From Grifola frondosa (taxonomy: Eukaryota > Basidiomycota > Agaricomycetes > Polyporales > Grifolaceae): a stretch of 64,000 bases of DNA. The notes below the pieces were generated by a model. It had not been told where the DNA came from. It saw nothing but the letters and a program-made list of their open reading frames with translations, and ran no database searches. Below, piece after piece: positions 21,034 to 64,000 of the stretch (positions within the stretch are counted from its first letter, which is position 1; every line of letters begins with the position of its first letter). The DNA lies in NCBI GenBank assembly GCA_001683735.1, contig LUGG01000013.1:1426001-1490000 (forward strand). The letters run 5' to 3'. The position numbers and the translations under genes are program-made.

Positions 21034-21049
21034 ATATTAATCCGCGCGC

Positions 21050-21709: not shown

Positions 21710-22009
21710 CTGCATGCACACGGGTAAAATTCCGCATGCACATGCATCACATCTGCACACATGTGTCACATCCGCACACATGGTGTGACACAACAACCTG
21801 TTCATTCTATAGCATCGTTCAAAGTTAAAATCGCCTGCATCGGCTACATTCGGCTAGTCGCTTAAAGCCAGATTATTATTGAGTGAAAATCAAACGATGA
21901 GGAGATGGCAATACACTGCAGATTGATACGGTCGTCTGATCTCTCCGATCCGAAGTTTAGGGCTATTTGGATGAGTGACTCACGAGGTCACATCACGATA
22001 TGCCTACTG

Positions 22010-22669: not shown

Positions 22670-22774
22670 GCCTACTGTTTGCCTGGCGACTTCGTACCTT
22701 CTGCCCCTTACCCACGTTTCACCTCCACATCTCTCTACCTCGTTGACTCCTCTTCTTGTAATTACCTTCACCAA

Positions 22775-27886: not shown

Positions 27887-28162
27887 GTAGTTGTGCATGG
27901 CAGCTGCGTCACCGGAAGAGTCCGGCGCAGAACCAATCGGACATCAAAAAACCCCAGCACACCTACCACCTATAACATCTGGTGACTTTGATATAGATGG
28001 GGGGGGGTATGGTCATGCTTTGTGACTGAGCGCGTCAAACTCGTGCACTTTTACGGACTTGTCGGATTCCCGCTCACCTGCTGGCATGTACTGTACTTGT
28101 AACTTCAAGAATAAAATGGCATTGATTGAACTCTTTCATCTGCTACCTCTTCATCTGTTCTC

Positions 28163-44606: not shown

Positions 44607-44692
44607 AACTGTAGCATATACTGCTGAGTCTGCAGAGGTTGATGGGGAGACTAGTAACTCTGATTCCGGGTATCCATTTTGGCCTCGGAATG

Positions 44693-47041
44693 TTAATATG
44701 TTCCATCATCTCTTTCAGCAATTCCAACACCATTATCCTGCTGCCAAGGTCTTCCTAATAGGCCATCAAATGGGGGATCAAATGCAACATATGCATTGAT
44801 ATTGGTCTCAATATGACCAATCTTTAGCGGTATGTTCTCCACTAATCCTAGTAATTCGCCTCGGCCTCCATTTGCATCACTCATAGATATCGCTTTCCTT
44901 TTATTCATCGGCAAATGAACTGTAGATTTCCAGACCTTCTCACTGATAATATTCAGCTGAGAACCAGTGTCCACAATAAATGACACAGGTTTTCGGTTAC
45001 ATTCCATGAAAAGCCGAATCAGTGATCCACAGGTCGCAGTGACCAAATTCGAAGTTGGCGCTGGAATTACGTCTGTCTTCTTAACCCGAAGAATATTCTG
45101 CAACTGCTGAGCAACTTCCTTGGATACTCCAACAACCTCTCCCACAGATAAGGTGAGTTGAGTGTTAAGTATCTTGTTAAGAACCGATGCAGGATCCACT
45201 TCTCTGCTGATCACAGAAGTACGTGCTGCTGATCGAGCATGTTCTGTCACTTGCTCCCTGTTAGGCTCATTATTGGACATAGCTGGGTCATCCAATATCT
45301 CCACATCATTGTCTGGATTGAAATTCCTCGTCTGTACATCAATTGGAGTTAATTTCTGCATTGGTACCTGAGGTACTGCAGAAATCTCGGGCCGACTTGT
45401 TGAAGCAAGGTGAGGTGGTGGACCCTTTTGCTGTGGCAACACCTCTCTTTGCTTTCCCTTATATTCTGTGCTTCCCTGATATCCATCTCTGATTTGATTG
45501 TGGTAGGAACGAGTTTCCCGAGGGACCTTCTCTACGGGGAAGACCAAAACGTCGGACTCGTCTTCCTCATCCATTTCTTCATCATCAGAGACCTCATCAC
45601 ATACAAGGTAATTCACCTCTGGGGCTATCCGCTTAATTGCCTGCATCCAATTCTCATCTGGGTTTCGAAAAACTGGTATACCATTCTTCATGGTAAACCT
45701 TCCTCGATAGTCCTTTAGGAGAAGACCCTTTGTCATCATTTCCTGTAGGCGAGGACAGTTGCCCATAATGTGACCAGATTCTCCACATCCAAAGCATCCT
45801 ATTGAAGGTGGTCGAGATGAGAGAAAGCGATTTGGATCTGGCCTGCTGAACTGAGTCGGTGGAGGAGGTATGTCAACTCTATTAATCCGAGGTCGTGGCA
45901 GACATTCTGCAGCTAAAGGATTTAGCTGTGAAGCCTGAAGGTATAATAATCCATACTTCGGATCCTCCACGGACAAATTCTTCATTTGCATGATTAGTTT
46001 GTCCATTTCGTCCTTGAGCTTATTTGGGTGTGGTCCTTTCATCACCTTTCCCAAAGGTTTACCCAATTTGCTAGACTCTCTCCGGGGTGTTCCATGACTA
46101 ATAGGAACTTCATCTTCATCATCATCATCATCATCATCATCATGTGCAGACCTTGCCTGGAATCGGACCTTCTTTCCACCTTTGGCTCTGGCTGCACATC
46201 TCCTTGTATCTGCAATCCTTTCATTTCCATAATCTTCATCATCTGAATCATCATCGTCAACCAGATCATGATCATAGATGTCTTCAGATCCTAATCTCTC
46301 TGTATCGAATCTGTCAGATCCTAACAGATTCTCTGCAGCACTTGAGATTGCTTCTGGCTCAAATGGTTGTGACATATCATGAAGTGGTTCTGTCAAAATA
46401 ATCCTAGCCTCCAGCTGCTTGCGGAACAGGGTGTAAATTCCAGTCCACAGGTAGTAGGCATAGTCGAAATCACTGATTTTCCTTTGCCCTTTCAACCATC
46501 CAGCAATGCGGATAAACTTCCTTAAGTATCTCCACCAATCCTTCAGATCGTATATCTTTTCTCGCCTAAATTGGGCAACAAAGGCCTGAAGATCCTTCAA
46601 GCGGAACCTCTTTGACTCGAGGTCAGCATTGAAGTATATCTCGATATTCGCCTTTAATTGATCCCAATTTCCATTCCTGAAACTGGAGAAACCCTCAATA
46701 GTTTCTCGTACCGTACGAGAACAGTAATCTGTGACTGTTTCGCATTTCTCCTCTGCCGTAAGCCTGTGTAGCGTGGCCAACTTCTCAAAGTGGCGAAGGA
46801 AGGGCCTGACTTCTGCAGAATCTCCCTTAAAATGCGTAGGTGCAGTCTTGGTGCCTTCGACTGGCATGTCCATGACTGACCTGGTGTTTGAAACTGATGT
46901 GAACTGGCTATCCATCATAGGACTGCCTATATTCGAATTCTGGGTTCCGGTATACATGACTCCTGAACACGTATAACCGTGGGTGTGATCACAGAGATAT
47001 ACCACTCGTGTGATGACGTATGCTTGACAACTTTTCTTCAA
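44693..47041 (-). CDS. Ty3/gypsy-like Gag-protease ORF (782 aa)
   Basis: Gag capsid-like helical region (residues about 60-230, e.g. PTHFKGDSAEVRPFLRHFEK), acidic runs of Asp at about 300, zinc knuckle CFGCGESGHIMGNC (C-x2-C-x4-H-x4-C, about residue 405) and a C-terminal retropepsin FIVDTGSQLNIIS with FDGLLGRPWQQDN. It ends RDDGTY then a stop. In the -1 frame the text continues LTFRGQNGYPESELLVSP, the usual continuation of this protein family, into the next ORF. So the two ORFs were one polyprotein, split by a one-base deletion near 44695. No other stop exists in 5.4 kb. The likely real start is a later Met near SPMMDSQFTS. Confidence 0.8.
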   Translation of the reverse strand: MKKSCQAYVITRVVYLCDHTHGYTCSGVMYTGTQNSNIGSPMMDSQFTSVSNTRSVMDMPVEGTKTAPTHFKGDSAEVRPFLRHFEKLATLHRLTAEEKCETVTDYCSRTVRETIEGFSSFRNGNWDQLKANIEIYFNADLESKRFRLKDLQAFVAQFRREKIYDLKDWWRYLRKFIRIAGWLKGQRKISDFDYAYYLWTGIYTLFRKQLEARIILTEPLHDMSQPFEPEAISSAAENLLGSDRFDTERLGSEDIYDHDLVDDDDSDDEDYGNERIADTRRCAARAKGGKKVRFQARSAHDDDDDDDDEDEVPISHGTPRRESSKLGKPLGKVMKGPHPNKLKDEMDKLIMQMKNLSVEDPKYGLLYLQASQLNPLAAECLPRPRINRVDIPPPPTQFSRPDPNRFLSSRPPSIGCFGCGESGHIMGNCPRLQEMMTKGLLLKDYRGRFTMKNGIPVFRNPDENWMQAIKRIAPEVNYLVCDEVSDDEEMDEEDESDVLVFPVEKVPRETRSYHNQIRDGYQGSTEYKGKQREVLPQQKGPPPHLASTSRPEISAVPQVPMQKLTPIDVQTRNFNPDNDVEILDDPAMSNNEPNREQVTEHARSAARTSVISREVDPASVLNKILNTQLTLSVGEVVGVSKEVAQQLQNILRVKKTDVIPAPTSNLVTATCGSLIRLFMECNRKPVSFIVDTGSQLNIISEKVWKSTVHLPMNKRKAISMSDANGGRGELLGLVENIPLKIGHIETNINAYVAFDPPFDGLLGRPWQQDNGVGIAERDDGTY

Positions 47042-47056
47042 TAACTATCTTTCCTC

Positions 47057-47074
47057 CCCTCGCGGTGGGCTCCA
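47057..47074 (-). promoter_or_regulatory. Putative primer-binding site
   Basis: Read on the minus strand, TGGAGCCCACCGCGAGG starts 8 nt after the LTR end (ACGACA at 47083). A TGG start and this spacing are as expected for tRNA-primed LTR elements. The matching tRNA would end GGUGGGCUCCA; I did not identify which. Confidence 0.5.
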
Positions 47075-47082
47075 ACTCTTCT

Positions 47083-47437: not shown

Positions 47438-50400
47438 CTGTCTACCAGACATCGCTATCACAACTTAGTCCGCTCACATCAGTTCCATCTTTCATCACGT
47501 CGCAGTCATCTCCACCAGAATTACAACTACCTCCAGTAGCAGACGATATTCCAGCCCGGTCGCAATGGCCTGAATCTTCCACTCCAGCTTCCACACACAC
47601 TCACGCATCACTTCCACTTCGTTCGGGTCTAAGACTAGGTGAAGATACTTCTATTCTCGATCACGCGACAGAGCTGCACGAGAAATTAGAAGAAGAATCG
47701 CCTATCATTGCGGAACCATCTCAGTTGCAAACCATGGTAGGACCTTGACATCTTCCGCGACCTATCACTCGCAACTACATGAGACAACAGCAGCGTTGTT
47801 CGCAATCAACATCTTCAGTAAACCCTGACACACCTGTATCGTGACCATTTCAGTGAGCGTCACGTCCTCCAGTAGCACCTAGACCAGTCCCACCTGTGAC
47901 AACACAGAACATACCACCTCAGCCTCCTATTCCTCAGCCACCTCCTGTAAATCCACCAGCTCCTATCATGGCAACAGCAATGCCCACGTGCTGTCATATT
48001 CTTCCGGCGATCGGTATGAAACAACACACTTTTCACCAAACAACCAAAAGGCTATCTGACTAGAGTAATATTTGTTTTATAGTCGAGGGGTTATTTCCCG
48101 GATAGGACGGGTGCACCGAGCGTAACGGGGTTTCCTACTTTTCCGGATAGAGGCTCAGTCGAGTCCGGTTGTGCGAAGATACGCTATATCACAGGAGACT
48201 CTGAAGATGCTCTGTGAAGTATCCTACGGTACTTGGTTACTCGCAGTATACCTGTGGGGAACAAGAAAAAGACTAGGCTAGACTCAAATAGTCTGCCTCG
48301 TTAGTATGCTTCTAACTTCTTTTCAAAGTTACTGCCTTCTTGCAGTACTTTGACTTCAATACTGATTCCGCTTGCTGATTAGGAATGCTCCTGGACTTCT
48401 TTCCAGAGACTTATACTCCGTAATCACTTACAAGACGGACTTCCCAAACCCAATACAAACAACCAATTTCTCAAACTGACGGTGCGTACCTGATGTCCTT
48501 TATGACAGGATTGCCTCCACTGTCCTAACAAAAGTCTACCAATCTTCCTACCTAACCTTGTGCTTCCAGAATCTCTTGCCTGGACAGTTGACAATTTAGG
48601 GAAGTGATATGCCCCTTTTGTGACAGGATTACTTCACTGTCCTAATAAAGGTCCAATATTTCCTGCCTGAACTTGTGCTTCCAGAATCTCTTGCCTGGAC
48701 AGTTGACAATTCAGGGAATACTTTACAAACAGGTAAGCCTAGACCACACACTCAAGTGGGCCTCAAAGTTAGAGAAAGAAAATCTGATTCAAAGCTAAGG
48801 TTGGCTGAGGAACGAGAGCTTTGGGGGGGGATCCAAGAGATAAAGAAAAAGGATGGATAATCAAAAGATGGATGGATAAAAGATGGATGATGAAAAGATG
48901 GATGATGGGGCCCCTCGTTCGCTCCAGCTTATATACTCTACAGAATGTTTCTGGAAAGTTCTATTCTATGGCTGACTAATGCTCCTTCTGCTTACCAATC
49001 CACTCCAAATGCTTACCAATCCACTAAGTTTTCTGCTGACGAATTGCATTTGGAAGTTGCTGGAAGCTTCCTTGACCTGCTAGCACATTCTACACAGGTC
49101 TCTCTCCTTCTGGAGAATTCTCCCAGGTTCCATGAGTTTCTAGGGTGTTCTTCATGATTCTATGATACTCTGGAGTCTACTGAAATATTCTAGCAGATTC
49201 TCCAGGTTTCTGTATTCTTCCAGGACAATCTGGAAGGGGAATTTTCGATTAAAGTCTTCTTTTAAGACTATAATCTTCTGGGAAATTCCAGGACCTTCTG
49301 TCCTTCCAGGATATTCCAGGATATTCATCAGCAAGGGGCCACAAGTCTGCTCAACTAAGCAGAAATGACCACAGTACGTCTTTGCTGACACAATTCTGAT
49401 TACAAGAGGTGAACTGAGCGAAGTGCAATATGTGATGGGAGATGAATGTGACGGATAAGGAAAGGGAAGAAAGGGGATAAGCCGTGATGTATTATGACCT
49501 TGACCTTCTTGACTGTCCCTAGACTCCCTGCAACTGCTGCTGCCACAATCGAATGTCTCCTGGGAAAATGACTGTGTTTGATTGGAATGTGACATAGTCA
49601 TTATCCGGCTTCAATGCTCCTGTCATCCAGCGCGCTGTCTGGGCTGCCCAATTCCATGCTATCGTTCCATTCCCTGCATGCTTTCACATGTGTGGGTAGT
49701 GCAGACACTGGTCAATGAAATTGCCATGTCCGAGTACCAATCCAGATTGGTGCACGACAGCGCGGACATCATACTGCACCAGTTTTCGATCCAAAGGAAC
49801 CGTGAACGCTTTTGCGATTCTTTGAAGATCTAGAATATCTCTTTACCATGCTCATGACCACACTGACCAATGAATTGAAGAAGAGACATGCTGTATGGTA
49901 TGCACCCATCGACATTGCAGATATGTGGAATCAATTACCTTCATATGCGGATGCGACAAAGACGTACGAAGAATGGTGTGAGGAGGTCAAAGTGTTTTAT
50001 CCTACTGCCAATGCAAACAGGAAATATACATTGCAGGATCTTGATTTACTTATAGGAGAACGATTGTGATTGGGCATTTCTACAGCGACAGATCTAGGAG
50101 ACTATTACAGGGAGTTTTTCAAGATCACAGAGTTCCTTCGCAGTTGACAGAGACTTTCGACAAGCGAAATTGTGAGGACGTTTTATAAGCCTTTCATGCC
50201 AACTCTCTGGCAGTCTGTACACTCGCGACTCCAACTTAAGTACCCTGACCACAATCCCGATGACTTCTGGCCATTAAGACATATTCTAGATGCCGCACAC
50301 TATGTCCTACATGGCACGCAAGTCGACACACCAGTGCAGGGTACACCTGCAGCTGCGACCACATCCACAGCATTACTGCCAGGCACTATCAAGATGGAAG

Positions 50401-50720
50401 ACTTCACTTCCCTCATCGAAACCATCACTCGCACCATCGCACAAGCCTTCGCAACATCAGCAAACATGGCCTATGCTAATGCACAACCACAGACGTCACG
50501 AGTCTCCAATATTGCGAACACGAATCCAAACATGTCATCAGGAGGTTGTCACTACTATGGAGAATTTGGGCATGTAATAGGAGGGTGTCCGAGAGTCCAA
50601 GAAGATATTGACATGGGTCGCATCCGTCGCAACATCGAGAACAAGGTAGTCCTACCTTCGGGAGCCTTCGTTCCTCGCAATGTAACTGGTGCCACCATGT
50701 GCGATTGCATCCTCGAATGA
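47438..50720 (+). pseudogene. gypsy gag, interrupted by solo LTR
   Basis: The 5' part (47438-47991) encodes a Pro/Ser/Thr-rich N-terminus. After the LTR the text resumes as a capsid: HTAPVFDPKEP, stop, TLLRFFEDLEYLFTML, DIADMWNQLPSYADATKTYE, KYTLQDLDLLIGERL, stop, LGISTATDLGDYYREFFKIT. The zinc knuckle reads CHYYGEFGHVIGGC, so the second Cys is Tyr. Stops at 49803, 50067 and 50145 are each TGA for an expected CGA. Confidence 0.8.
47992..49759 (-). mobile_element. Solo LTR, family L, copy iii (1768 bp)
   Basis: Ends TGTCATATTC and GTGCACGACA (TGTC..GACA inverted ends) inside the gag of the plus-strand gypsy. Flanking GTGC (47988-47991) and GCGC (49760-49763) form a 4-bp duplication with one C/T difference. 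No internal element sequence remains, so it is a solo LTR. Orientation is set by copy ii, which abuts the minus-strand gag. Confidence 0.88.
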
Positions 50721-50726
50721 CATCAC

Positions 50727-51996
50727 ATGCACCCAAACAATCTCGCGCAAGGACAACTTAGCTCGAATGCGAACCCACCAGCAGGGCAAATGATTTTTGA
50801 GATCACTTCTAATCCCAGTGTCGCATCATCGTACCAACTCACGAGAGAAGATCACATCACAGCCTTGGAGAGAGAAATCTTCACACTCAGAAAGGAAAAG
50901 AGACCTTTGATGGTGAGAAATCCCTAGGCACCTTCCAGCGCGACCTCAAGTACTGCCTCCAGTCAATCGCATCGATAATCCTCCTATGCATGAGCCCACA
51001 GAGGCATCGCAGGTTACCAATCCTCCTAGTGTATCAGCACCCGCACCTGTGGCATCATCGACACTGTCACCTGCAATGGTTCCAGCACCTATTCATCCAT
51101 ATTTACAAGCTCACAATGCGACGTACACTCCGCTGCAGGATCGCAACCTGGGAGTACTACCCAAGCCTCCCAAGGACAAAAATGCAGCTTACAAAACATC
51201 TGCGCCTGTTCAAGATTCTAGAATAGCGAAGGATGTCTTCAATAGGTCCATGAAAGCCCTGCTACTTATGCTGACACCTGAAGAACTGCTATCCATCTCT
51301 TCAGAAGTTCACGTGAAATATTGCAATGCAGTAACTCCTCATCACATCCAAACCACGGACAAATCAGTCGCGAGCTATGCAGATATAATCGAGGATGATA
51401 CAGATGAGCTTCCAGATGTCGCAAATTCCTCATCGCACATTCCTCCTGCATTGCAACTAGTCTCGAATGGCCAGCCTCTTCAACCAGGTGTCATGGTCAT
51501 ACCAGATCCCTATGAGACGTACTTGCACAGCCTCAAACCTGGCGAAACACCGGAGGTTTTGACGGTCGCAAAGGAGTCGCATGCCTTGCAATCCATCAAT
51601 GGTCTCGTAGACAACAAAGAAGACGTCGAAGGGATTATAGACCCAGGATCGCAGATCATCTCCATGTCAGAGGAAGTCTGTCACGTGTTAGGACTCATAT
51701 ATGACCCTATCATATGCCTTAACATGCAGTCAGCTAACGGCAAAGTTGATCAGTCTCTTGGACTTGTTTGCGACGTCCCTTTCCAGGTCTCTGACATCGT
51801 CCTTTACCTTCAGATCCACGTCATTCGACAGGCAGCATACGACATCCTATTGGGGCGACCATTCAATGTTCTAACAGAGAGTGTTGTTCGCAACTTCGTG
51901 AACAAAGACCAGACAATCACTATATACTGCCCGAATACCTATCAGACAGTAACAGTCCTGACATTGCGACGAGGGCCCCCACGATTCAAAAGGTGA
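50727..51996 (+). pseudogene. gypsy protease region
   Basis: Open from 50986: Pro-rich linker, then GIIDPGSQIISMSEEVCHVL, where the catalytic DTG/DSG has become DPG, and YDILLGRPFNVLTES, the C-terminal flap motif of retropepsins. The Asp is retained but the motif is altered, so activity is doubtful. Confidence 0.75.
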
Positions 51997-52055
51997 TCAC
52001 AACCATTGTGACACCACGAGACCCATGACCGAAATTTTACAGCGAACTCGAGGAT

Positions 52056-54163
52056 TTGATTCACGATCAAGGAGAGTTGGCTCTAGTTTTGGATTATGAT
52101 ACCCAGTTGGTGCATCCCATTATTTCGTCTTTTTCTGTGATTGTATCCGTTTCTGATATAGAAAACATAAAAAGCACATATCTTTCAGCTTGCAACTTTG
52201 CCTTTGCTTCAGAATCCATTTCTTCTTCACAGATTCAAGATACCACTGGTGCAACAATATTGATTCAAGAAATACAAAACATATCAAGATTTGCAGTTCC
52301 CTACCCTTCGCGATTTTGCACTCTCTCCCATTCCCCAGATAATTGAACTCACTTCCCTCCACGACAAGATTCAACATCTGTGTTCATTACACAGAAGAAG
52401 AAATACAAACCAGTCGCACTCAAAGTGCAACCAGTACTTGCAACACTGCCCAATTGCTTTTGCATCGTATGCAACATTCAAGGAGACCCACTCGCAGACA
52501 TGCCACCCCTTGATCCGAATCCACCTACCTTCGAACCCACAGGAAGATATACACAAGCATGTCACGACATGTTTCGCAAAGCACACAATACAGGATTTCT
52601 CTGGCCAGCAGAACTTGATCTCATCGATAATTTCATGTGCAAACAGCACAAAGGCTTCGCATGGGATGACATGGAATGAGGTCGATTTAGGCAGGACTTC
52701 TTCCCTCCAGTCAAAATTCCTGTCATCGAACACAAGCCCTGGGTTCACGTAACATCCCCATCCCACCTGGGATTTTCAACGAAGTCTGTCGCATCATCAG
52801 GAAGAAAATCGAGGCAGGAGTCTATGAGCCATCCAACTCATCCTACTGATTGCAGTGGTTCTGCATCCACAAAAAGGATGGCAAAGCGTTGTGACTCATA
52901 CACAGTCTTGAGCCATTAAACGCAGTTACAATCCAACATTCGGGAGTCCCACCAATTCCTGAACACATCACAGAGAAATTTGGCAATCGTGCGTGCAGCA
53001 GTATGCTAGATCTTTATGTTGGATATGACGAGCAAGAAATTGCAAAGTCATTGCGAGACCTCACATCCTTTCAGACACCCTATGGCATGTTGCGACTGGT
53101 GACCCTTCCGATGGGATGGACAAATGCAGTACCCATCTTCTACGATGATGTCACATACATCCTACAGCCCGAAATTCCACATATCACAATTCCATACATT
53201 GACAATGTCCCAGTTCGCAGTTCTGAGACACGCTATGAGCTACCAGATGGAGGCTACGAAGTCATCATGACAAATCCGGGCATTCATAGATTTGTCTGGG
53301 AGCACATGCATAGCATCAGCAGGATTGTACAGCATATGTGATACTGTGGTGGTACATTCTCTGGCATGAAATCCCTCCTAGTCGCAGAGGAGACACTCAT
53401 CATTGGTCATTGCTGCACCTACAAAGGCAGACTTCCAGAAGAATCGCGAGTCAAAGCGATCGAAAATTGGGGCCCTTGCAAAGACTTGTCGGAGGTCAGG
53501 GCTTTTCTAGGTACCATAGGGGTTGTTCGCATCTTCATTCACAATTTCTCACAATGCACACATCCACTTGTCTATCTTATGTGCAAAGATATCCCATTCG
53601 AATTCAGTCCACGACAAATCCAAGTGCAAGAGGATCTAAAACAAGCACTCCTCGAGTCCCCAGCCTTGTGCACAATCGACTACACGTCTGACTCTAGTTA
53701 TCCTAGCAGTTGACACCTCATACATCGCAGTCGGATTCCATCTATGTCAATGTGACCTTGAGAACCTGCGAATTCAATACTACAACCGATTCTCATCCAT
53801 CACACTCAATAATCGCGAGTCGCGATTCTCGCAACCCAAGCTCGAGATCTATGGACTCTTTCACACACTACATGCGTTGTGACTGTATTCATAGGTGTTC
53901 GAAACCTAGTCATAGAAGTCGACGCACGCTATATCAAAGGCATGCTACAGAACCCAGACATTGCACCATCCGCAAGCATCAATCGATGGATTGTTGCAAT
54001 CTCATATTTCACTTCACCCTTGTTCATGTTCCCGGCACCAATCATGGACCAGACAGACTCTTGCAGAGACCTAGGCAACCAGATGATGAAGACAAACCTG
54101 AGGATGATTTCAAGGACTGGATAGATCGCATACACGGTTTCGCACACCTCGTTAATCCTCATC
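52056..54163 (+). pseudogene. gypsy reverse transcriptase and RNase H
   Basis: In pieces: KKYKPVALKVQPVLATLP, AELDLIDNFMCKQHKGFAWD, stop, IPPGIFNEVCRIIRKKIEAG, LQWFCIHKKDGKAL, stop, LIHSLEPLNAVTIQHSGVPP, FQTPYGMLRLVTLPMGWTNA, IPYIDNVPVRSSETRY (YIDN in place of the catalytic YIDD) and WGPCKDLSEVRAFLGTIGVV (connection/thumb). RNase H: VDTSYIAVGFHL, EVDARYIKGMLQNPDI and VHVPGTNHGPDRL in shifting frames. Stops at 52677, 52847, 52892, 53339 and 53880 fit CGA to TGA. Confidence 0.82.
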
Positions 54164-54544
54164 TAGTGTTGCTGCAGCTAAGTCAGGCCTAAATGATATA
54201 TGACTCATAACTTTGGCAGATGTTCAGATATAATAGTGATCTTACATTTATTTCGTAGCCTATATATATCCGCATACTTTTGCCAAATATCAAAATGTTA
54301 TACCTCGTATTGATGGAGATATAGCCAAAAAGCCGATTGCAAAGTCTGACTTTTTAGTCAGCTTTTTTACCAATGTAACTGAAATTGAAACATATTAAAG
54401 ATAATTATGCAAATGGTGGTGTTACATTCAAATACATATGCATCTTAGCTATTAATTTCAATTAAGATCATGTCATTATCTGCAAAATTCATGTCATAAT
54501 ATCTAAAAAGCTGAAACAGGTGTGACTAAGCCATGGCAACACTA
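54164..54544 (+). mobile_element. hAT-type MITE, family M1, copy 2 (381 bp)
   Basis: Ends TAGTGTTGC / GGCAACACTA, perfect duplication TCCTCATC at 54156-54163 and 54545-54552. Inserted between RNase H and integrase of the gypsy element. Confidence 0.95.
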
Positions 54545-56116
54545 TCCTCATCCTACACAGAAAGTCACCCGTGACTCACTTGTTTCCATATATGCCCTCG
54601 ATGAACCACAACCAGACTTGCGACAGTCATTGCAAGTAACAGAAGAAGAAGGAGAATCGCAGGACCCATCCACAGATTCCTATGACATTGTACCCCCAGT
54701 ATTCAAGCCATCGTACTCGACCAAAGGCTTCTACTTGTCTGCAACTGGCATAAAACACTCAAGCAACCAGCACAATTCACAGATGCAGACTATGAGACTT
54801 TTGTTAAGTTCGCAGTACAATTCTTCATCAACTCTGACAGACTTTGGAAGCGTGATCCACACGAAGCACACAAACTCGTCAACATGCCTGAAGGACGTCT
54901 CAATATTCTGTGAGCTTGTCACGATGAAATAGGCCATCGAGGAGTCTATGCAATGTGAGTATCTATCTGTGAACGATTCTGGTGGCCTCATATGCTGAAG
55001 GACATCGTGTGGTTTGTTCGCACATGTCTAATTTGCCAACAGCGACAGTCGCGACAGGTTTTCATTCCCCCAGTTGTCGCAATGCCAGCATCTCTATTCA
55101 TGAAAGTTCACCTCGACACAATGCACCTCCCTCCATCAGGTGGTTACAAATATCTCATCCAAGGTCACGACTCCCTCACATTCTATCCCGAATTTCGAGC
55201 ACTTCGTGCAGAGACAGCAAAAACTCTTGACGATTTCATCTTCGAAGATATCTTTTGCAGATGGGGTGCAATCAGTGAGATTGTCACAGACAATGGCACT
55301 GCATTCGTGAAGGCAACCAAGTACCTTGCGAAGAAATATCACATCCACCACATTCGCATTAGCGGATACAATTCATGTGCAAATGGCATCGTCGAGTGAT
55401 CACACTACGATATTCGAGGAGCACTCTTCAAGGCTGCAGATGGAGACCAAAAGCGATGGTTGCAAGTGGTTCACTCAGTATTCTGGGCAGAAAGAATCAC
55501 GGTGCGCAAATGCATGGGTTGTTCACCTTACTTCGCAGCGACAGGAACACATCCTATCATTCCTCTCAACATCTCTGAAGTGACATACCTACAACCACCT
55601 CCCGATTCCATCATGACGACCACAGACCTTATCGCCAGATGCACGATCGCACTTCAGAAGAGACACAAACAGGTCACATGACTCAATTCCAAAGTCTTCG
55701 AAGCATGTGTTGCAGCAGCAGTTCGATTCGAGTGCGAACACAAGACCACAATATGTGATTTCGATTTCAAACATGGCGATCTAGTGCTCATGCGACACAC
55801 GCAGATCGAGAAGTCACTCAATTGCAAGATGCGATCACGGTATCTTGGACCGCTAGTTGTCTTAGCAAGAAATCGTGGAGGAGCCTACATCCTTGCAGAG
55901 CTCGACGGCACAGTATTTGACAGGCCTGTCGCAGCATTCAGAGTCATTCCATTCTTCGTGCGAAAATTGATCGCAGTCCCACAGGCACTACTAGATATCG
56001 ATGAACAGCATCTGCGAGAAATGTGCAAAGTCACATCGCAAGGAGATGATGAAGATATACAAGATGATATGGAGCACGTTGAGGCAGAGGATGAAGAATA
56101 TCTTCCTCAAGAATGA
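54545..56116 (+). pseudogene. gypsy integrase and C-terminal domain
   Basis: Zinc-binding end (ICQQRQSRQVFIPP), then the core with the first Asp in HLDTMHLPPSGGYKYL, the second in EIVTDNGTAFVKATKYL and Glu in NGIVE, followed by a TGA (55397) for an expected Arg. SVFWAERITVRKCMGCSPYF and the GPY/F-like RYLGPLVVLARNRGGAYILA follow. The tail LDIDEQHLREMCK... is acidic and ends at 56116. A further TGA lies at 55679. Confidence 0.85.
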
Positions 56117-56390
56117 ACTTGCGATTCACATACTTTCCACTTATCTATCAGACGTTTTGCATATGCTTATTATTTTTATACTTATAGTGTTTCATGTAAG
56201 TCGCGATAGTCACTGTAACAGTCACGCAAAGGATCACAGGGGTTTTACGGCAATGAAGATCAACTGAGCCTTTCCCCTTGTAACATATTTCTTGTTGAGT
56301 TCACTCATTTACTTGCGATGATTATAATCGCATCACGACTATGATTCTTACTCAGCACTGAGACGATGACTGGGGACAGTCAGAATTTCA

Positions 56391-56405
56391 GTGAGGAGGA
56401 GAAGG
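56391..56405 (+). promoter_or_regulatory. Purine tract after integrase (PPT-like), plus element
   Basis: GTGAGGAGGAGAAGG follows a conserved block ACTGGGGACAGTCAGAATTT. The same pair of blocks occurs at 62345-62297 on the minus strand and, partly, at 59640-59599. It lies 275 bp after the integrase stop. Confidence 0.6.
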
Positions 56406-56766
56406 TTTCAATGCAATGCAATATAAGCAAGTTATGCGGCTTAATTTGTGATTTTTCCTTTACTTATTGCAAGCAGATATTCGTCTAAGGATTCATTTTC
56501 ATTTTAAATATATCCTACAAATGTACAGAATCAAGGAGACTACGACAACAGACTAAGAAAAATCAAGATACTACATATCATACGATGGTTAAAGACGATG
56601 CCAAGGAGATGCATAAAGGGGTAACCAAGACACGATACATATGGCAAATTGCAGAAATGAAGAAACATGGTCCAAATATCCATGCGACATTGTCGCGAAT
56701 GCATCTTCAGATCCTTACTTGTGACTTCCCTCAGATGGCTTCTTCGAACGACCTAGGGACAGGTCA
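56406..56766. other. Unassigned 3' region between purine tract and antisense gene
   Basis: AT-rich, no open frame of note and no terminal repeat recognised. It separates the plus-strand gypsy end from the minus-strand gene that follows. Confidence 0.4.
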
Positions 56767-58132
56767 TCACACGTCACTTGGAAGCCAAAGTGTATACTCA
56801 CTGAGGCGAGCAGAACCAGGCCAAGCATCAGGATCCCCACCAGCGTCTTCAATGATGTGACACAATTCCTGGTTGATGTGAAACACCTCGGTGTCGCACA
56901 CATTTATCTCCATGTCAAGAACGTATCTGTGCTCACTCAGCATGCAATACCGAGTTGCAGCCAAAGGGTCGAGGACAAATAATGGAGGAGCATGCAGATC
57001 AGCAATAGGAGGCTTGCAACGAGGAGCGGGCACTTGCGATGGACCAGCCCTACTCGTCGATGGCACAGTAGAGGACGCAGGAGACTCGAAAAAGAGCAGG
57101 TTGATGTCGGGAGATGGGAGAAATGGCTCCTCAATGAATGGCTCCTCAACAGGTTCAACAGGAGAGGAAGGCCTAGGCGTCACAGCAGGTGGGGCTGTCT
57201 TCTTTCCTTTCCCCTTTACAGCATGCTGGGTTTTCTTGGAGGCTGTTTTTGACAGCAACAATGACTTAGCAGGAGTCTCCGTGACCGGAGCACTTGCAAT
57301 GACTGGGGGTTTTGCAGTTGATAGATGTGTCGCGCAATGAATTACTGGAGCCTTTGGAGGCAACGTCTCTATCATCACCATTGGAAGAGGTGGGAGAGTT
57401 CTCACCACAGCAGCAGCAGCAGCAGCAGTCAATGGTGATGGAATTGAGGTACCAGCTGGCTTGTGAGCTGGGATACAAATCGAACCAGGTGATGCACTAC
57501 TATGAGTGGTAGAAAAGCGGACACCTTGGTGACGGCGAGCACGAGCTGCCAAAATACAAGTCCTTCAAGTAAAAGAATCAAAGAATGGCTGACAAAATGT
57601 ACCCGCAAGTGCATCGCGAGTCAATCCCTTCCACATACAGCCCTTCTTGTCGCATTTGCACCATTCACAAAGCCAATCCAAAGGACGAATTGCACACAGC
57701 AAAGGATGCTGAAGATCATAACAGCAGTCACACTAATCAAGGAGTCAGTGCAATCCCAAGGATACTAACAGATGAACTCACTGGTCCAACCACATCTCCG
57801 ACGTTGACTCCCTGCTTGTTGTGCTTACCAGCACCTCCAGTGATGAGCACATGCTCAATGTGACCATTGTCATCCTCATTGGCCAGCAGCATGAACCCTT
57901 TGTCCTCCACGATCACTCGGCGATGCTTGGAAGGTGATTCCCCCAGTGGGTCCAGTGGTGCCTCGGGTGATCGCGAATCTAACTCATAGCCAGGTAAGTC
58001 TGAAAATACCCCGTCATCATCACTGTTCACGACAAAGGCTGGCACTATGCTGGATGCATACTTGCTCGAGTGCACTGATAAGACTCGAACGGGATCCGGA
58101 CTAAAACCTAGATAATAAACCCACACACACAC
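56767..58132 (-). pseudogene. Antisense accessory gene, copy 1 (Cys-cluster / helical protein)
   Basis: Minus-strand exons: about 58132-57790 (acidic, then KGFMLLANEDDNGHIEHVLI, ends at a GTGAGT), about 57690-57570 (LCAIRPLDWLCEWCKCDKKG then CMWKGLTRD, Cys spacing C-x8-C-x2-C-x6-C), and 57552-56767 (poly-Ala, basic GKGKKTAPP, FLPSPDI, then the helical LDPLAATRYCMLSEHRYVLD). It ends TGA TGA. Homologous by motif order and by the xWxGLTRD signature to 59850-62082. It lies tail to tail with the gypsy integrase. The 5' start is not defined and abuts LTR-like sequence, so I call it incomplete. The function may be nucleic-acid binding. Confidence 0.6.
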
Positions 58133-58139
58133 ACACTCT

Positions 58140-59598
58140 GTATGTAAGGAGGTCGTAGCACGGATCGGAAGTTACGAGGTATGTCGCGAGTGGGCCTAAC
58201 GGCTTCTCGTTTTGGTTCCGAGCTCGAAGTGTGAACATGAATGTAAATACGAAGGGATGGAAAATGGAACTCGGAAGAGGGGACGCAAGGATAACTCAGC
58301 TCTATTCGCGACGGTGTGAGGCCGAATGCGAGACTCGCACGAACTCCTTGTGCTTCTCGGAAATGCAGTCGCAGTGCTTCGGAAACGTAGTCGCAGTCGC
58401 AGTGTAAAAGCTCAATCGCAAAGGGAAACACAGTGAAATGCAATTGCAGTATAACTTGGGGTAGACGCAGCGTGAGACGAGGGTGCGATCTGAAGGCGAT
58501 CACGATGAGTTGCAGTGCTGGAACTGAGCTCTCAACTCGAGGGGGAAAACTTGTCTGAATTCAGTAAAGTAATTACAGGGTATTTATCGACGAGTCCGAG
58601 TCCGAATCATGTGAAAAATGACCATGGACGATGCTCGGAAGCCCGAAGTAGACGTAGCCAAATGCGAAGAAGAGGGTAATGATATGATGAGGAAAGGGTA
58701 GGATTGGGATATATTGAGGAGGCAGGGGAGGGACCAAACGTGCATGAGCTCGTATGAAACGTAGCAACTGCGGTTGAACTACTAGGCTTGCCTTATCCGG
58801 AAGGGAAATGATTGCGATAGCCTCGGGGGTTGCAGTGCGAATCCGATCGCCAATACGATCTCGCCCTGGCCATGCGGACATACCTGAAACGGGTCCAAGT
58901 CTATCTAGTGTTGCCATGACTTAGTCACACCTGTTTCAGCTTTTTAGATATTCTGACATGAGTTTTACAGATAATGACATGATATTAATTAAAATTAATA
59001 GATAAGATGTATATGTATTTGAATGTAACACCACCATTTGCATAATGATCTTGAATGGATTTCAATTTCAGTTACATTGATAAAAAAGCTGACTACAAAG
59101 TCGGACTTTGCAATCGGCTTTTTGGCCATATCTCCATCAATACAAGGTATAACATTCTGATATGTGGCAAGATTATGCGGCTATATATAAGCTACACAAT
59201 GAGTATAAGAGCGCTGTGATATATGAAAAACTGCACAAGTTATGAGTCATATATCATTTAGCCCTGACTTAGCTGCAGCAACACTAAGTCTATCGGGCTA
59301 TTTCGGAGCGATGCCGAAAGGTCCTGATGTCGTACGATGCGGTCTCCATGCGGATCCGGCGAGATCGGACCGTCCGATCGGACTGTCCCGACAGTCTGGC
59401 TCGGTCGATCGCAGATGCGTGCAGTGCGCGTGTGCTCAGCGCGAGGATACTCCGGCGTCTGAGAAGGGCTTCGGCTCGATTAGGAAAGCCGATCCCGATG
59501 GTGCGTGCGGTAGGTGGAAGTGTGGGCTCGCATTCGCATTCGATTGGCCACAATCGCGAAGAGAGTCGGAGATGCGGTAGATGTTGCGTGCGTATCAT
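58140..59598 (-). mobile_element. Probable LTR of the minus-strand gypsy element
   Basis: On the minus strand a purine tract (GTGGGGAGGAGA, 59609-59598) is followed by TGATACGCACGC, as at the start of a 3' LTR. A TATA-like GATAAATACC occurs near 58585, followed by a CT-rich start (CAAGTTTTCCCCCTCGAG). The likely end is near TTACATACA at about 58140, beside a (GT)n run. The MITE at 58906-59286 is inserted in its U3. No second copy is in the window, so the limits are inferred. Confidence 0.5.
58906..59286 (-). mobile_element. hAT-type MITE, family M1, copy 3 (381 bp)
   Basis: Same ends as copy 1 but inverted. Perfect duplication AGTCTATC at 58898-58905 and 59287-59294. Very close in sequence to copy 4. 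Confidence 0.95.
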
Positions 59599-59609
59599 CT
59601 CCTCCCCAC
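59599..59609 (-). promoter_or_regulatory. Second purine tract (PPT-like), minus element
   Basis: Minus strand GTGGGGAGGAGA preceded by GGACGGTCCAGATTTTA. It matches the tract at 62310-62297 (GTGGGGAGGAGGAT preceded by GGACAGTTAGGATTTTA). The two tracts bracket the antisense gene. Confidence 0.55.
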
Positions 59610-59849
59610 TAAAATCTGGACCGTCCCTGGTCCTCGTGTAGGGATGAAGGAAGATCGCGAGTGGCGGGAATTCGGTTGCGAGACATGAGGATGCGCGGGG
59701 AAAGAAGTCGGACATGTGTTGATGGGATACTGATCGCGTGGTGGCCAGAAGGCGTGCGCTTGTTCCACTTAAATGCGAGGAGCCTTGTATCGCGTTCTCA
59801 CGCTCCTTTCTCCCTCTCCTTCTCTCTTTCCACTCCTCTGCTTATCATC

Positions 59850-62082
59850 ATGTCGTCCTCTCTTCCTGCTGAGGTCCCATTCGACGTGCACGCCGCCTAC
59901 ATGGCGTTCGATCCCGCCGAACGCGAGGCATTCTTGGCCGGCTACCGCGAAGAGCTTGAGGAGGGCGTCCAATTAATCCTGGATGCGCAGACGAAAGGCG
60001 ACCTCGAGATAGCTGGGCAAGCATTCATGGGGGCAATCGTAAGTTTGTTGGCTGATTCTTCTGAGAATACAATGGCGAGTAATCTGTGCAGGGTGACCTT
60101 CATCATCTCCAAGCTTCCGAGGCTAATGCAATCGCAGCGGAGGTGCTGGAGATCGTTCGCCCCTCCTTCGCCCATATCTGGGACGCGTCGTGGATGTCGT
60201 GGGGTGCGGAGCTCCTCCCTCAAGCTCCTACGCCAGTTAATCCTGTTCATGCACTTCGCGCGCGACTCGCTGCGACCAGTGCTTCATTGGTACAGGGATC
60301 GGCTTCGTGTTCAGCCTCCGTCCACCCTCCTCCTGCCCTTGACTTGTCCGACATGGCTCCTATACGGGTAAAGGTTGAGCCTGGTGAGGAAGAGCGATCA
60401 CTCACTGAAGCCGCTTCATGCATTGCGGGCGCCGTGATCGAGCTGACAGATAGCGAGGCCGATGCGATGGGGGATGATCCCGAGTCTGAGGAGGACGAAC
60501 TCATGTCCTCGACGCCTCCTGTGACCGCTCCGAACGTGCATACTAGGAGCGCTAAGTCCGCGAAGACTGCGAGGGTCGCGAAGGAGACGAAGGTGGTTGG
60601 GCCGCTGTCTGGAAGCGAGCTGATGGTGAAGCGGGCGGAACACGAGGCTGAGGGTTACTTTCCGCTCGAGGGCTGGGATAGTGTTGCTGCAGCTAAGTCA
60701 GGGCTAAATGATATATGACTCATAACTTGTGCAGTTTTTCATATATCACAGCGCTCTTATACTCATTGTGTAGCTTATATATAGCCGCATAATCTTGCCA
60801 CATATCAGAATGTTATACCTTGTATTGATGGAGATATGGCCAAAAAGCCGATTGCAAAGTCCGACTTTGTAGTCAGCTTTTTTATCAATGTAACTGAAAT
60901 TGAAATCCATTCAAGATCATTATGCAAATGGTGGTGTTACATTCAAATACATATACATCTTATCTATTAATTTTAATTAATATCATGTCATTATCTGTAA
61001 AACTCATGTCAGAATATCTAAAAAGCTGAAACAGGTGTGACTAAGTCATGGCAACACTAGGCTGGGACAGCCAAGGCAATCGGGTTGCGCTCGCCAACAG
61101 GGGTGGTGTTGGTCTTCGTGGTAAGATTCCGACGGAGCTCGGGGCAGTGCGCGGTGCAGTAAATATCATTTTCTTCCTCATGTTCGTCCCTGCTGACTTC
61201 GTATCTAGTGCACCCGTTGCCAGCTCGATCAGAGGCCCCTTGAGTGCTTCATCAACTCTTCGTCTCGGCTCTGCGTCGTGTGCTTCGAGAAAAGCCTTGG
61301 GTGTCGCTGGAACGGGCTGACTCGCGACAAAATTGGTGCGTCACTTTCCCCATGTCGTTTCTGCCACCGCTGACCTGCAATCATCGCTGTAGTGCAGTTT
61401 CCTGAGGAGCCGACGATCGCTTCGAACAGTGCTGCAACTAGTGAGGCCACTATGACTGCCTTGACAGCAGCATGTCGTTCCTCTCGCACTAATACTCACA
61501 CGATGACGAAGGCAGCCTCCGTGCGCTCGACGGCTACTGACAAAAAAGGGAAGGGCGTGGATCGCAGTGGAGCTCATGCCAGTCCCCCGACATCAACGTC
61601 GACTCCGTTCCTTCCATCGCCGGCACCTCTACCTCCGATTTTGACGTGCGGAGCATCGGCTCCTCTTCGCGAGTGACTGGGTACGTGGGGACTCCTCGTC
61701 TGGGTGCTGTGCCCATGGCTAAGTCAGCTTCTACCAGGTCCGTTGCTGGCGACGCGACCTTCGCCGCTCCATTCCATCGTGCGGGTAGCCCATACTCTGT
61801 TGCGAACACAGATGTCCGCACACACCTTCGGTCCATGTGCAACTGCCAGGTCACGGTGGAGACGGACCTCGTGCTCGGCATCGATGAGCTTTCGCGCCTT
61901 GAGAGCAGGATGCGCAAGGAAGCAGCTAACGCGAGTGAGGACATGAGGGGGTGGATCGCTGCGTCTCATCCTTCGGATGCTGTCGCTATCGGTGCATATT
62001 CTGCTTTGTCCGTGGAGGTCGCTCGGCAATGCGAGGAGATTGGAGGCTCACAAAGGAGCTCGAGGACTTGAGGCAGAAGTAG
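59850..62082 (+). pseudogene. Antisense accessory gene, copy 2, split by a MITE
   Basis: Exon 1 59850-60038 (MSSSLPAEVPFDVHAAYMAF, helical); 53-nt intron; exon 2 from 60092 (GDLHHLQASEANAIAAEVLE, acidic EPGEEERSL..., basic KSAKTARVAKETK, EGYFPLEGW) to the MITE at 60679. After the MITE it resumes DSQGNRVALANRGGVGLR, then about 61209-61333 CTRCQLDQRPLEC and LCVVCFEKSLGC followed by RWNGLTRDKI (Cys spacing C-x2-C-x8-C-x8-C-x2-C-x6-C). Then a Ser/Thr/Pro linker (FLPSPAPLPP) and a helical C-terminus (ETDLVLGIDELSRLESRMRK). One or two small frame breaks; stop at 62080-62082. It faces the integrase of the minus gypsy. Without the MITE the gene would be nearly whole. Confidence 0.65.
60679..61059 (+). 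mobile_element. hAT-type MITE, family M1, copy 4 (381 bp)
   Basis: Ends TAGTGTTGC / GGCAACACTA, perfect duplication GGCTGGGA at 60671-60678 and 61060-61067. It interrupts the coding sequence of the antisense gene. Confidence 0.95.
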
Positions 62083-62296
62083 GCGACGGAGGGGATGTCT
62101 CGTTCGCGGCAGAAATGGACTGCCTGGCTCTTTTCCCTTCGCTGTAGCTGTATCTCTGCGTGATCACGATGCAATGTATCTCCCTGTATGCGAAGTCATC
62201 TTAGTGTGTGTTTGGAAATGAAAATGGCTTTTTTTTTTAGACGATGTTCGTATGCGATAAAATCGAAAAATATCGTCAAAATATAGGCGGTATATT

Positions 62297-62310
62297 ATCC
62301 TCCTCCCCAC
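62297..62310 (-). promoter_or_regulatory. Purine tract after integrase (PPT-like), minus element
   Basis: Minus strand GTGGGGAGGAGGAT, preceded by ACTGGGGACAGTTAGGATTT. It corresponds to the tract at 56391-56405 of the plus element. It lies 288 bp after the integrase stop. Confidence 0.6.
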
Positions 62311-62597
62311 TAAAATCCTAACTGTCCCCAGTCAACATTAGAGTGGGTCGGATTCAATCAGATCAAGTGCGGAGAAGAGAATATATAGAAAGGAAGAAAA
62401 TTCAAAAACTTAGCGAAAATATATATATGGGGAAAGGCTCAGTACATCATCACTGCCTGAAAACCCGAAAAGTCTTGCACGAACGTCCGAGGAGTATCGT
62501 GACTTATGTCGTACACTATAAAATTATCATATGAGCATAAGGTGCGAGCGATTGAGTGGAGAGTGAAATTGAAAACGTGTCCGTGAGTATGCGAGTG

Positions 62598-63690
62598 TTA
62601 CTCGGGTGGAGCATCATCTTCTTCGTCGACTTCCTCTAGTCCTGGGTCATCGGGTATGTCTTCATCGTCACCTTGGGAATCAGATTGAAGGAGTTCGCGA
62701 AGTCGTTCATCGTCGATATCGAGGAGTTCGTTCGGGATGACGATCGCTTTGCGAGCGAAGTAGGGAATGACTCGGAATGCTGCGACTGGTTTGTCAAAGA
62801 CTGAACTGTCGAGTTCCGAGAGGATGTATGCGCCTCCCTTGTTGCGCAAAACCACTACGAGGGGTCCTAAGTATTACGCGCGCATCTTGCGATTAAGAGA
62901 CTTCTCGATCTGCGTGTGTCGCATTAGTACGAGGTCGCCACGCTTGAAGTCGAAGTCCTTAATGGTCCTCGCGTGCTCGCGTTCGAATCGGATTGCAGCT
63001 GTTACTCGTGCTTCGTAGACCTTCGATCGGAGGGTTTGGACTTGGTCGAATCACTTTTGCAACGCGATCGCGTGGCATGCGATAAGGTCAGCAGTCGAGA
63101 GGATGGATTCTGGAGCGGGCTGCAAATACGTTGCCTCAGAGATGTCTAGGGGAATGATGGGGTGGGTGCCTGTGACTGCGAAGTATGGTGAGCAACCCAT
63201 GCGATGGCGGACGGTGATGCGCTCAGCCCAGAATACTGAAAACACTACTTCTGCCCATCGCTTCTGATCTCCGTCAGCTGCTTTGAAGAGTGCGCCTTGG
63301 ATGTCGTAATGCGATCGCTCTACAATGCCATTCGTGCGAGAGTTGTAACCACTGATGCAAATGTGATTGATGTGATACTTCTTCGCGAGGTATTCGATGG
63401 CTTTGACGAACGCGGGGCCATTGTCAGTGACAATCTCGCTGAGTGCGCCCCAACGACAGAGACATTCTCGAATACGAAGTCGCTGAGAGTCTTCGAGGTC
63501 TCTTTGCATAGTGCTCGAAACTCGGGATAGAATGTGAGCGAACAACGACCTTGGATGAGGTAATGATAACCGCCCGATGGTGGGAGGTGCATCGTGTCGA
63601 GATGGATTTTCGCGAAGAGTGGTGCGGGGTCACGATGACTGGAGGGATTAGGACCTGTCGCGATTGACAATATAGCATCAACCTGCTACA
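62598..63690 (-). pseudogene. Ty3/gypsy integrase, second element, 5' truncated
   Basis: Reads (minus) CQSRQVLIPPV, HLDTMHLPPSGGYHYL, EIVTDNGPAFVKAIEYL, NGIVERSHYDIQGALF (D, D, E present), VFWAERITVRHRMGCSPYF, then a TGA for Arg near 63055, EKSLNRKMRA, stop, YLGPLVVLRNKGGAYIL, and an acidic tail (GDDEDIPDD) ending at 62598. It is homologous to the plus element but better preserved. Two frameshifts near 63450-63600. Upstream (towards 63.7 kb) it is cut by the satellite array. Confidence 0.85.
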
Positions 63691-63733: not shown

Positions 63734-64000
63734 ACAATACTGGGCAGATTGTAATATATATTGTATTACAATAGCAGCATTGTAATACAGCTAGGCCGCA
63801 TTTTTTTACAATTAGGGCTGCTTGTAATATTTTTATAGTACAATCTGACCTGATTGTAATACTAGATAATACAATCAGACCAGGTTGTAATTTTCGATAA
63901 AACAATCAGGTCAGATTGTAATATTCAGTAGTACAATCAGGTCAAATTGTAATATTCAATAAAACAACCAGGCCAGGTTGTAATTGTCGATAAAACAATC
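63734..64000. repeat. 31-bp satellite of palindromic units
   Basis: From 63840 the units start exactly every 31 bp (63840, 63871, 63902, 63933, 63964, 63995). Each has the imperfect palindrome ACAATCAGGYCAGRTTGTAA and an AT-rich spacer. More diverged units of 32-34 bp extend back to about 63734. The array runs off the right edge. Confidence 0.92.

Follow-up and report, generated by a model that had tools for sequence, protein, structure and literature searches.

An antisense gene between two polypurine tracts in Ty3/gypsy elements of Grifola frondosa: a candidate for an exchangeable control module

According to the accessible parts of the reviews that treat them, the roles of antisense genes in long terminal repeat (LTR) elements are unknown. 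Among fungi, the Boty-like elements of Botrytis and Sclerotinia carry brtn, which is read in antisense (Zhao et al. 2011, as cited in PMC7264820 and PMC8365987). Here we describe a Ty3/gypsy-type family of the basidiomycete Grifola frondosa, two copies of which (P on the plus strand and M on the minus strand) lie in a stretch of 64,000 nucleotides of contig LUGG01000013.1 (positions 1,426,001 to 1,490,000; hereafter the window) and have a gene in antisense downstream of the integrase. Boty is likewise a Ty3/gypsy element of fungi whose antisense gene lies between pol and the 3' LTR; however, it belongs to ascomycetes, it is likened by position and not by sequence, and the available portions of the citing papers mention for it neither a double polypurine tract nor an exchange of alleles together with the unique 3' region (U3) of the LTR.

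In plants, antisense additional open reading frames (aORFs) of the class aORF-3R are described for the Ty3/gypsy elements Grande (gene23), RIRE2 and Retand with TRP28 (PMC11963269, PMC7264820), and these share with the Grifola gene the place, the orientation, the presence in most copies and a suspected DNA-binding or nuclear role. The Grifola proteins have a six-cysteine motif instead of a TRP28 match (TRP28, PF04195, did not appear in the Pfam results obtained with E cut-offs of 1 or 10), and in the accessible parts of these two papers neither bracketing tracts nor allele exchange is mentioned for the plant elements. HBZ of human T-cell leukaemia virus type 1 (HTLV-1; PMC11963269) is also the nuclear product of an antisense gene of an LTR element, but that element is a retrovirus of people and is likened here by description, not by sequence. 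Variable U3 modules on a conserved coding sequence are described for Tnt1 (PMC1838419) and recombination between family members for Onsen (PMC5668417): there, as far as the accessible text goes, the variable part is the U3 and no extra gene is involved, whereas in Grifola gene and U3 are swapped as one block.

The first-pass annotation of the window, made from the letters alone, knew of no such gene in this fungal lineage. That remark has to be qualified, since with Boty an antisense gene in this position has already been published for a fungus. In a literature search on antisense or extra open reading frames in fungal or basidiomycete gypsy elements (subscription papers were mostly outside its scope) the family was absent among the matches listed, which included plant elements, rotifers and Boty brtn; searches on antisense frames swapped with U3 and on internal tracts in Ty3/gypsy elements gave no case that we recognised among the matches listed (15 of 20 and 10 of 1183, respectively). 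The new part is an antisense gene that is swapped with its U3, between two tracts, on a constant backbone, while the anatomy is of a kind already known.

A gene between two polypurine tracts

The genome searched comprises 39 Mb in 64 contigs, the window being part of contig C12. A query of 1.3 kb from the integrase end of M matched itself, four more copies with 97-98% identity and at least 15 places with 70-75% identity, P included; copy counts from this query are lower bounds. Nineteen stretches with copies (labelled L plus a number; the last one, L027, is a displaced copy) were taken for analysis, with the upstream part added for two, and a self-comparison of the M region gave mostly satellite and was set aside. 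Full-length elements are E9 (L009 plus L029) for the minus type, to which M belongs, and E13 (L013 plus L030) for the plus type, to which P belongs. Their LTRs are 1134 bp (E9, 99.7% identical) and 1249 bp (E13, 99.9% identical) long, start with TGATAC, end with ATATCA or GTATCA and are flanked by target duplications of 4 bp (GCGC and ACGG, respectively). In both elements GGAGCCCACCGCGAGGGG follows the 5' LTR as the putative primer-binding site, a polypurine tract adjoins the 3' LTR and the reverse transcriptase precedes the integrase in the pol frames, which is the order of Ty3/gypsy elements; the Pfam matches RVT_1 (E 0.00085) and rve (E 6.8e-06) are both below the curated cut-offs. The pol of both E9 and E13 is frameshifted despite the nearly identical LTR pairs, which could reflect mobilisation in trans or assembly indels.

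Two tracts are present in 18 of the 21 oriented copies, tract 1 after the integrase and tract 2 before the 3' LTR; L016, L026 and P show tract 1 alone. In all 18 copies, tract 2 is followed by ATGATAC, with the LTR start; tract 1 is a conserved internal polypurine tract resembling the one at the 3' end. In all four copies tested, tract 2 is the best downstream match to tract 1, with 25-27 of 30 bases identical against maxima of 19-21 in 60 shuffles, and chance is excluded as the cause of this likeness. Both tracts of a copy have the bases of its type (CAGTGAGGAG in plus-type and TAGTGGGGAG in minus-type copies, L010 being one base off in tract 1), and nearly all copies of both types have GGACAGT in tract 1 and GGACGGTCC in tract 2; the exceptions to these distinguishing bases are L011 and L012, with GGAACGGTCC. 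Between integrase stop and tract 1 (56117-56371 in P, 62330-62597 in M) lies a block, GGGGTTTT...ACTGAGCCTTTCCCC, that is kept in seven aligned sequences from three lineages, with GGGTTTT in M, while the surrounding DNA is poorly conserved.

The proposal of the first-pass annotation that the antisense gene belongs to the element is borne out by a match to the antisense protein between tract 1 and the LTR region in 19 of 19 cassettes, plus P in the window. As expected of an aORF, the gene is at least partially present in 20 of the 21 copies, although some are short (59 residues in L011); in L026 the best match had an E of 0.012 and was not counted. No 3'-intact copy of the two lineages is fully without the gene, although a deletion of 1.3 kb has removed part of it in L011 and L012. 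A protein search of the genome identified homologues at seven places beyond these copies: two are fragments of the same lineage with a tract (L032 and L036), and the other five fall into two different repeat types, one with L033 and L035 and one with L034 and two further places. Homologues are thus not found mainly at loci unrelated to the element. Within the 5.5 kb examined at each of L033, L034 and L035 there is no integrase of the P/M lineage. The distant homologues in L033 and L035 have the full six-cysteine pattern.

A sister gypsy family, with an integrase 42% identical, is found in L037 (C19:34000) and L038 (C7:609200), with open integrase frames of about 500 amino acids in the part taken. 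Here, a similar tract lies at most about 25 bases after the end of the integrase frame and is followed by TGTCAC, the probable LTR start; there is no antisense gene in either stretch and no room for one between integrase and probable LTR. Because the sister family has its tract straight after the integrase and no gene, we infer that the antisense gene and the second tract were acquired together. A seeming cassette of the 42% family at C2:1363191 was rejected, as L036 shows it to be an independent fragment that has a tract 2 and an LTR start of its own.

The antisense gene of E13 is modelled with four exons and three GT-AG introns (52, 52 and 59 nt) and codes for 580 residues, or 608 from an earlier ATG. 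Of the 13 copies modelled, L013 (the reference), L024, L025 and L020 read without a stop or an extra intron, the model of L020 lacking a start codon; in L017 the cysteine exon is doubtful, and the remaining eight are broken or need extra introns. The positions of the introns flanking the cysteine exon are kept across the models. The antisense genes of P and M had been proposed to be homologous with a cluster C-x8-C-x2-C-x6-C; the homology stands, but the motif has to be extended to six cysteines, C-x2-C-x8-C-x8-C-x2-C-x6-C. All six, the tryptophan after the last cysteine and a W..WG farther upstream are conserved in seven aligned proteins, whose rows were picked independently of the cysteine pattern; another set of cysteine-exon rows was picked by the pattern, so that its cysteines are not independent evidence, while its tryptophan is. 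The pattern was not recovered in six of the 22 loci scanned (L009, L011, L012, L016, L023 and L034). Basic stretches such as KRRKT occur in the antisense proteins.

Alleles and U3 types on a constant backbone

The backbone of the family varies little: compared with E13, gag DNA has an identity of 93-99% in 13 further copies with loci, 94% at one more place and 90-92% in P, and the integrase is 97-100% identical in 11 copies. On these near-identical backbones there are at least six antisense alleles, with synonymous divergence (dS) of 0.95-2.2 in five pairs, while integrase dS to L013 is 0-0.06 in nine of ten copies and 0.21 in L023. Compared with L013, the dS values of antisense gene and integrase are 1.24 and 0.019 for L024, 1.92 and 0.058 for L017 and 2.24 and 0.032 for L014. 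As the integrases of the plus and minus families differ with a dS of 1.2-1.4, the divergence of the alleles is comparable in order to the split of the two families, with values near saturation.

Despite this divergence, the antisense protein is under purifying selection, as ratios of nonsynonymous to synonymous divergence (dN/dS) are between 0.16 and 0.33 and the same pairs read in shifted frames give ratios of nonsynonymous to synonymous differences (pN/pS) above one (1.03-1.64 in all five pairs). The individual dN/dS values are 0.17 for L013/L024, 0.27 for L013/L017, 0.17 for L017/L027, 0.16 for L014/L020 (358 codons) and 0.33 for L013/L014 (332 codons). The sample consists of seven of the 19 cassettes, with L014 cut before its frame break and the two stops of L027 skipped, and of six of the 15 pairs among six alleles; left out of the range are L024/L025 (1.04, on four differences) and L024/L020 (dS undefined, pN/pS 0.63).

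The limits of the variable part were read from an identity profile of 12 plus-type copies against L013 (L022 and P left out). The 1.5 kb ending at tract 1 are 92-100% identical in 11 of the 12 copies, L027 being displaced there, and tract 1 itself is identical at 25 of 25 bases in 13 of 13 copies. Past tract 1, identity falls over about 150 bases to 34-81% across the cassette; the exceptions are L018, which has the same allele as L013, and L023, where identity does not drop to 80% until some 300 bases further on. Identity is back to 86-100% at about LTR nucleotide 190-270 in L017, L022, L023, L024 and L025 and at about nucleotide 770 in L014, L015, L020 and L021, while L019 regains it for about 250 bases and L016 never does; L027 is reversed, resembling L013 where the LTR begins and departing from it after about nucleotide 470. 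By these profiles, the exchanged block consists of the antisense gene, tract 2 and the 5' part of U3, reaching from near tract 1 into the LTR.

Three U3 types can be told apart: type 1 in L013, L018 and L027, type 2 in L017 and L022-L025 and a third in L015 and L019-L021, to which L014 is assigned by its first 38 bases. In a comparison of U3 and integrase across copies (L011, L016, L026 and P left out; L027 has an integrase of 46-48% there, caused by the displaced segment taken), U3 class tracks the antisense clade in 13 of 13 copies (Fisher p 0.0008, for copies that share ancestry, with no tree and with L014 placed on 38 bases). Allele C occurs both with type 2 (L017 and L023) and with type 1 (L027). 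The same U3 type is present at both ends in L017, L022-L025, L015, L019 and L020 and, by partial hits, in L014 and L021. Since both LTRs of an element share the type, the exchange took place before these copies last transposed and does not stem from a one-sided assembly join.

Start codons of the antisense gene are about 90 (E9), 170 (L013) and 230 (L024) bases from the LTR, and because of this closeness the antisense promoter is probably in the U3 of the 3' LTR. The model that joins these observations is an element of Ty3/gypsy type whose third gene lies in antisense between two copies of the polypurine tract, starts near the 3' LTR and would be expressed from this U3, with old and divergent alleles sitting on gag-pol backbones that are nearly identical and have spread recently. 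The block would be swapped between co-packaged RNAs as they are reverse-transcribed; one junction would lie in the LTR, at the first strand transfer in the repeat region (R), and the other near tract 1, where priming or pausing is expected. Junctions at R and near a polypurine tract fit template switching. Taken together, the data suggest an exchangeable control module.

The two elements of the window

M occupies 58076-63668 on the minus strand with its 3' part (DNA match to E9, 95-98%) and runs past the window to 74977 (window coordinates), with an insertion after 63668. Its integrase end is at 62598-63668 (minus strand; stop TAA 62600-62598), tract 1 at 62300-62329, tract 2, which is the 3' polypurine tract adjoining the LTR, at 59599-59628 and the 3' LTR at 58076-59597, all on the minus strand. 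The antisense gene, on the plus strand, has exon 1 at 59850-60038, exon 2 at 60092-61158, the six-cysteine exon at 61209-61335 and the last exon, with a frame change, at 61393-62082. The order of integrase stop, tract and antisense stop given by the first-pass annotation was recovered in M, with 268 nt to the tract at 62329-62300 and then 217-228 nt to the antisense stops at 62069-62082, and also the second matching tract that brackets the gene was found at 59628-59599, one base before the 3' LTR (59597-58076). The ends of what had been called a probable LTR were set by the full-length relative with 99.7% identical LTRs.

P extends over 47438-58075 on the plus strand; it is decayed, interrupted at 47986-49759, lacks both LTRs and matches E13 with 83-92% in pieces. 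Its integrase end (55046-56116, plus strand) is 91% identical to the integrase of E13 (match at C12:1481085-1481672) and has a TGA stop ending at 56116; tract 1 (56372-56401, plus strand) follows after 255 nt and the antisense stop TGA (56769-56767) after a further 365 nt, in the predicted order. On the minus strand, the antisense gene of P comprises an open frame with a match to the E13 antisense protein that contains the last exon (56767-57564), the six-cysteine exon (57604-57732) and the rest of exon 2 (57765-58075, border approximate). M is inserted inside this gene and cuts it at 58076, with the flanks GCAC and GCGC; the DNA right of M is not the continuation of P. Because M reaches 74977 and P lacks LTRs and is cut by M, the window holds one nearly complete copy and one remnant.

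The antisense gene of M is also broken by a miniature inverted-repeat transposable element (MITE) of 381 bp with an 8-bp duplication at 60679-61059. This hAT-like MITE, about 380 bp long with TAGTGTTGC ends and 8-bp duplications, has four copies in the window: the one in the gene, one in the 3' LTR of M (58906-59286), one in P (54164-54544) and one at 2723-3101. Compared with E13, P has mainly C-to-T (220) and G-to-A (174) changes at 49760-54163 and 54544-56400 and much loss of CpG, a signature of deamination. M is interrupted by a long tandem array of a short unit rich in CAATC...GATTG, from 63806-64000 onward into L028. Another minus-strand element, at 41610-47044, has long open frames of 783 and 1031 amino acids, and beside it about 47050-47077 is complementary to the primer-binding sequence common to the P and M families. 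Farther away, there are perfect inverted repeats of 661-671 nt (21048-21718, 22001-22671 and 27227-27887, all three arms 100% alike) and an open frame of 500 amino acids that contains three 120-nt tandem copies (23938-24313).

Possible roles of the antisense product

The product would be a nuclear regulator that binds zinc, ends in a helical C-terminus and recognises the DNA of its own element. That it is a DNA-binding regulator of its element at all, in whatever direction, falls a little short of an even chance in our judgement. The Zn2Cys6 (Zn_clus) motif of fungal transcription factors has the spacing C-x2-C-x6-C-x5-12-C-x2-C-x6-8-C; this identity was rejected for the antisense protein, as its first loop is x8 and not x6 and Pfam listed Zn_clus neither for the full-length proteins nor for the cysteine exon alone. 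The best family match of the cysteine exon is the RanBP zinc ribbon (E 0.0066, in two of 13 rows), and no family is recognised; among viral contigs there were 38 pattern matches, none confirmed. Searches of the protein collection found no relatives for one protein (E <=0.01) nor for the seven aligned proteins (E <=0.1); these covered proteins of 0.55-1.75 times the query length (single-exon fragments left out), with the 7996 candidates sharing most words being scored. A control search with the integrase of the sister family found 387 proteins, the best 120 of which include Rhodonia, Trametes, Somion, Mycena and Agrocybe, so fungal proteins are within the collection, since Agaricomycetes are found.

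A candidate target is the short word TGCGA (TCGCA on the other strand). E13 gag-pol has 92 sites against 22-24 expected under a dinucleotide model (3.9-fold), and against synonymous shuffles there are 75 versus 31.2 (standard deviation 4.4, maximum 45 in 200); the excess is present in all three frames and TGCGA ranks first among 432 words with an expectation of at least 8. Enrichment is 4.7-5.0-fold in the three LTR types, 1.3-3.5-fold in the cassettes, 2.2-fold in gag-pol and 2.8-fold in the LTR of the M type and 1.3-1.4-fold in L026, compared with 0.6-0.9-fold elsewhere in the window and 0.7-, 1.1-, 1.9- and 0.7-fold (2-12 sites) in stretches of the sister family. Triple clusters of TTGCGA were not in excess (six sites versus four for a reversed control, none at any copy of P or M type).

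In a VANC-type system, a protein binds a motif and lowers methylation. The VANC proteins of the Arabidopsis VANDAL elements are anti-silencing proteins whose motifs are mainly non-coding, in one orientation and in tandem repeats (PMC5735166). Going by the accessible text, the Grifola elements resemble them in that the element codes for a protein in which conserved and variable parts alternate with each other or adjoin and, perhaps, in a short, family-specific motif that is dense in the element; but VANDAL is a plant DNA transposon, TGCGA is found also in gag-pol, on both strands and without tight clusters, and binding in Grifola would be by analogy. Anti-silencing of the own family via the dense TGCGA is, tentatively, the single most likely direction of the regulator, and self-repression, itself rather unlikely, ranks next.

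A wider and more novel proposal is that of an exchangeable self-recognition module: an antisense-encoded DNA-binding protein would mark the element by an element-wide motif, and gene and U3 would be swapped jointly because the internal tract makes a separate plus-strand segment. Held as a whole, this is possible yet doubtful. Several points weigh against a DNA-binding regulator in general. There is no relative in Pfam, PDB or the protein collection that points to a DNA-binding fold, and the structure model of the cysteine exon is poor (predicted local distance difference test score, pLDDT, of 52) and was not used. Decay of CpG is somewhat lower within TGCGA (41/89 versus 202/345 elsewhere, p 0.04), the strands are unequal in gag-pol (32 versus 60), the excess is weak in cassette L020 (1.3-fold) and 3.2 kb outside the element beside L019 have 7 sites versus 2.5 (2.8-fold). 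Conservation of TGCGA between E13 and E9 is 21/92 (0.23), against 0.19 for control words, and the synonymous test was run on stop-free stretches of the frameshifted pol rather than on a verified frame, with an overlap between two of the stretches. The density of TGCGA may have another cause than recognition by a protein.

Alternatively, the block could be a self-repressor or immunity module, the protein silencing elements with the cognate U3 in matched types, as in lambdoid phage immunity, with rare types being favoured. The linkage of gene and U3 class in 13 of 13 copies and the many alleles on one backbone would fit, but the adjoining U3 is probably just the promoter of the gene, which explains the coupling without recognition; moreover, L017 and L023 combine allele C with U3 type 2 but L027 combines it with type 1, no operator specific to one type was identified and the TGCGA excess is common to all three LTR types. 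We regard this as rather improbable. It is also unlikely that the gene is a passenger, weakly or formerly useful, whose old block lineages persist because frequent recombination in reverse transcription has homogenised gag-pol. In this view neither matching nor self-recognition plays a part, and the motif stems from mutation or codon use: members of LTR families often recombine, as seen in Onsen (PMC5668417), variable U3 on a conserved backbone is known from Tnt1 (PMC1838419), at least in what is accessible of these papers, and CpG decay depends on context, but there is purifying selection between alleles and TGCGA exceeds the synonymous shuffles. A cofactor of replication that assists in packaging, nuclear import or integration, as retroviral accessory proteins do, with no role in transcription, would agree with the six-cysteine domain and basic regions, with a gene kept in nearly all copies and with pol frameshifts in E9 and E13 despite LTR pairs of 99.7-99.9% identity, as proteins may act in trans; however, a partner of near-constant Gag and Pol is not expected to be so divergent and antisense expression would separate the product from the genomic RNA, making this role improbable. 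Slightly less probable still is that the antisense RNA itself acts, transcription from the 3' LTR giving double-stranded RNA or interference with the reading frame secondary, as proposed for antisense regions of other LTR elements (in the accessible part of PMC7264820): dN/dS of 0.16-0.33 with shifted frames above one shows selection on the protein, and the models keep the introns on either side of the cysteine exon in place.

One genome offers numerous alleles of an antisense gene on backbones that are almost alike, which makes the specificity between allele and U3 directly testable. If confirmed, this would be a regulatory module of a retrotransposon that is inherited by exchange, and the internal polypurine tract would be the likely reason why the module moves as a block.

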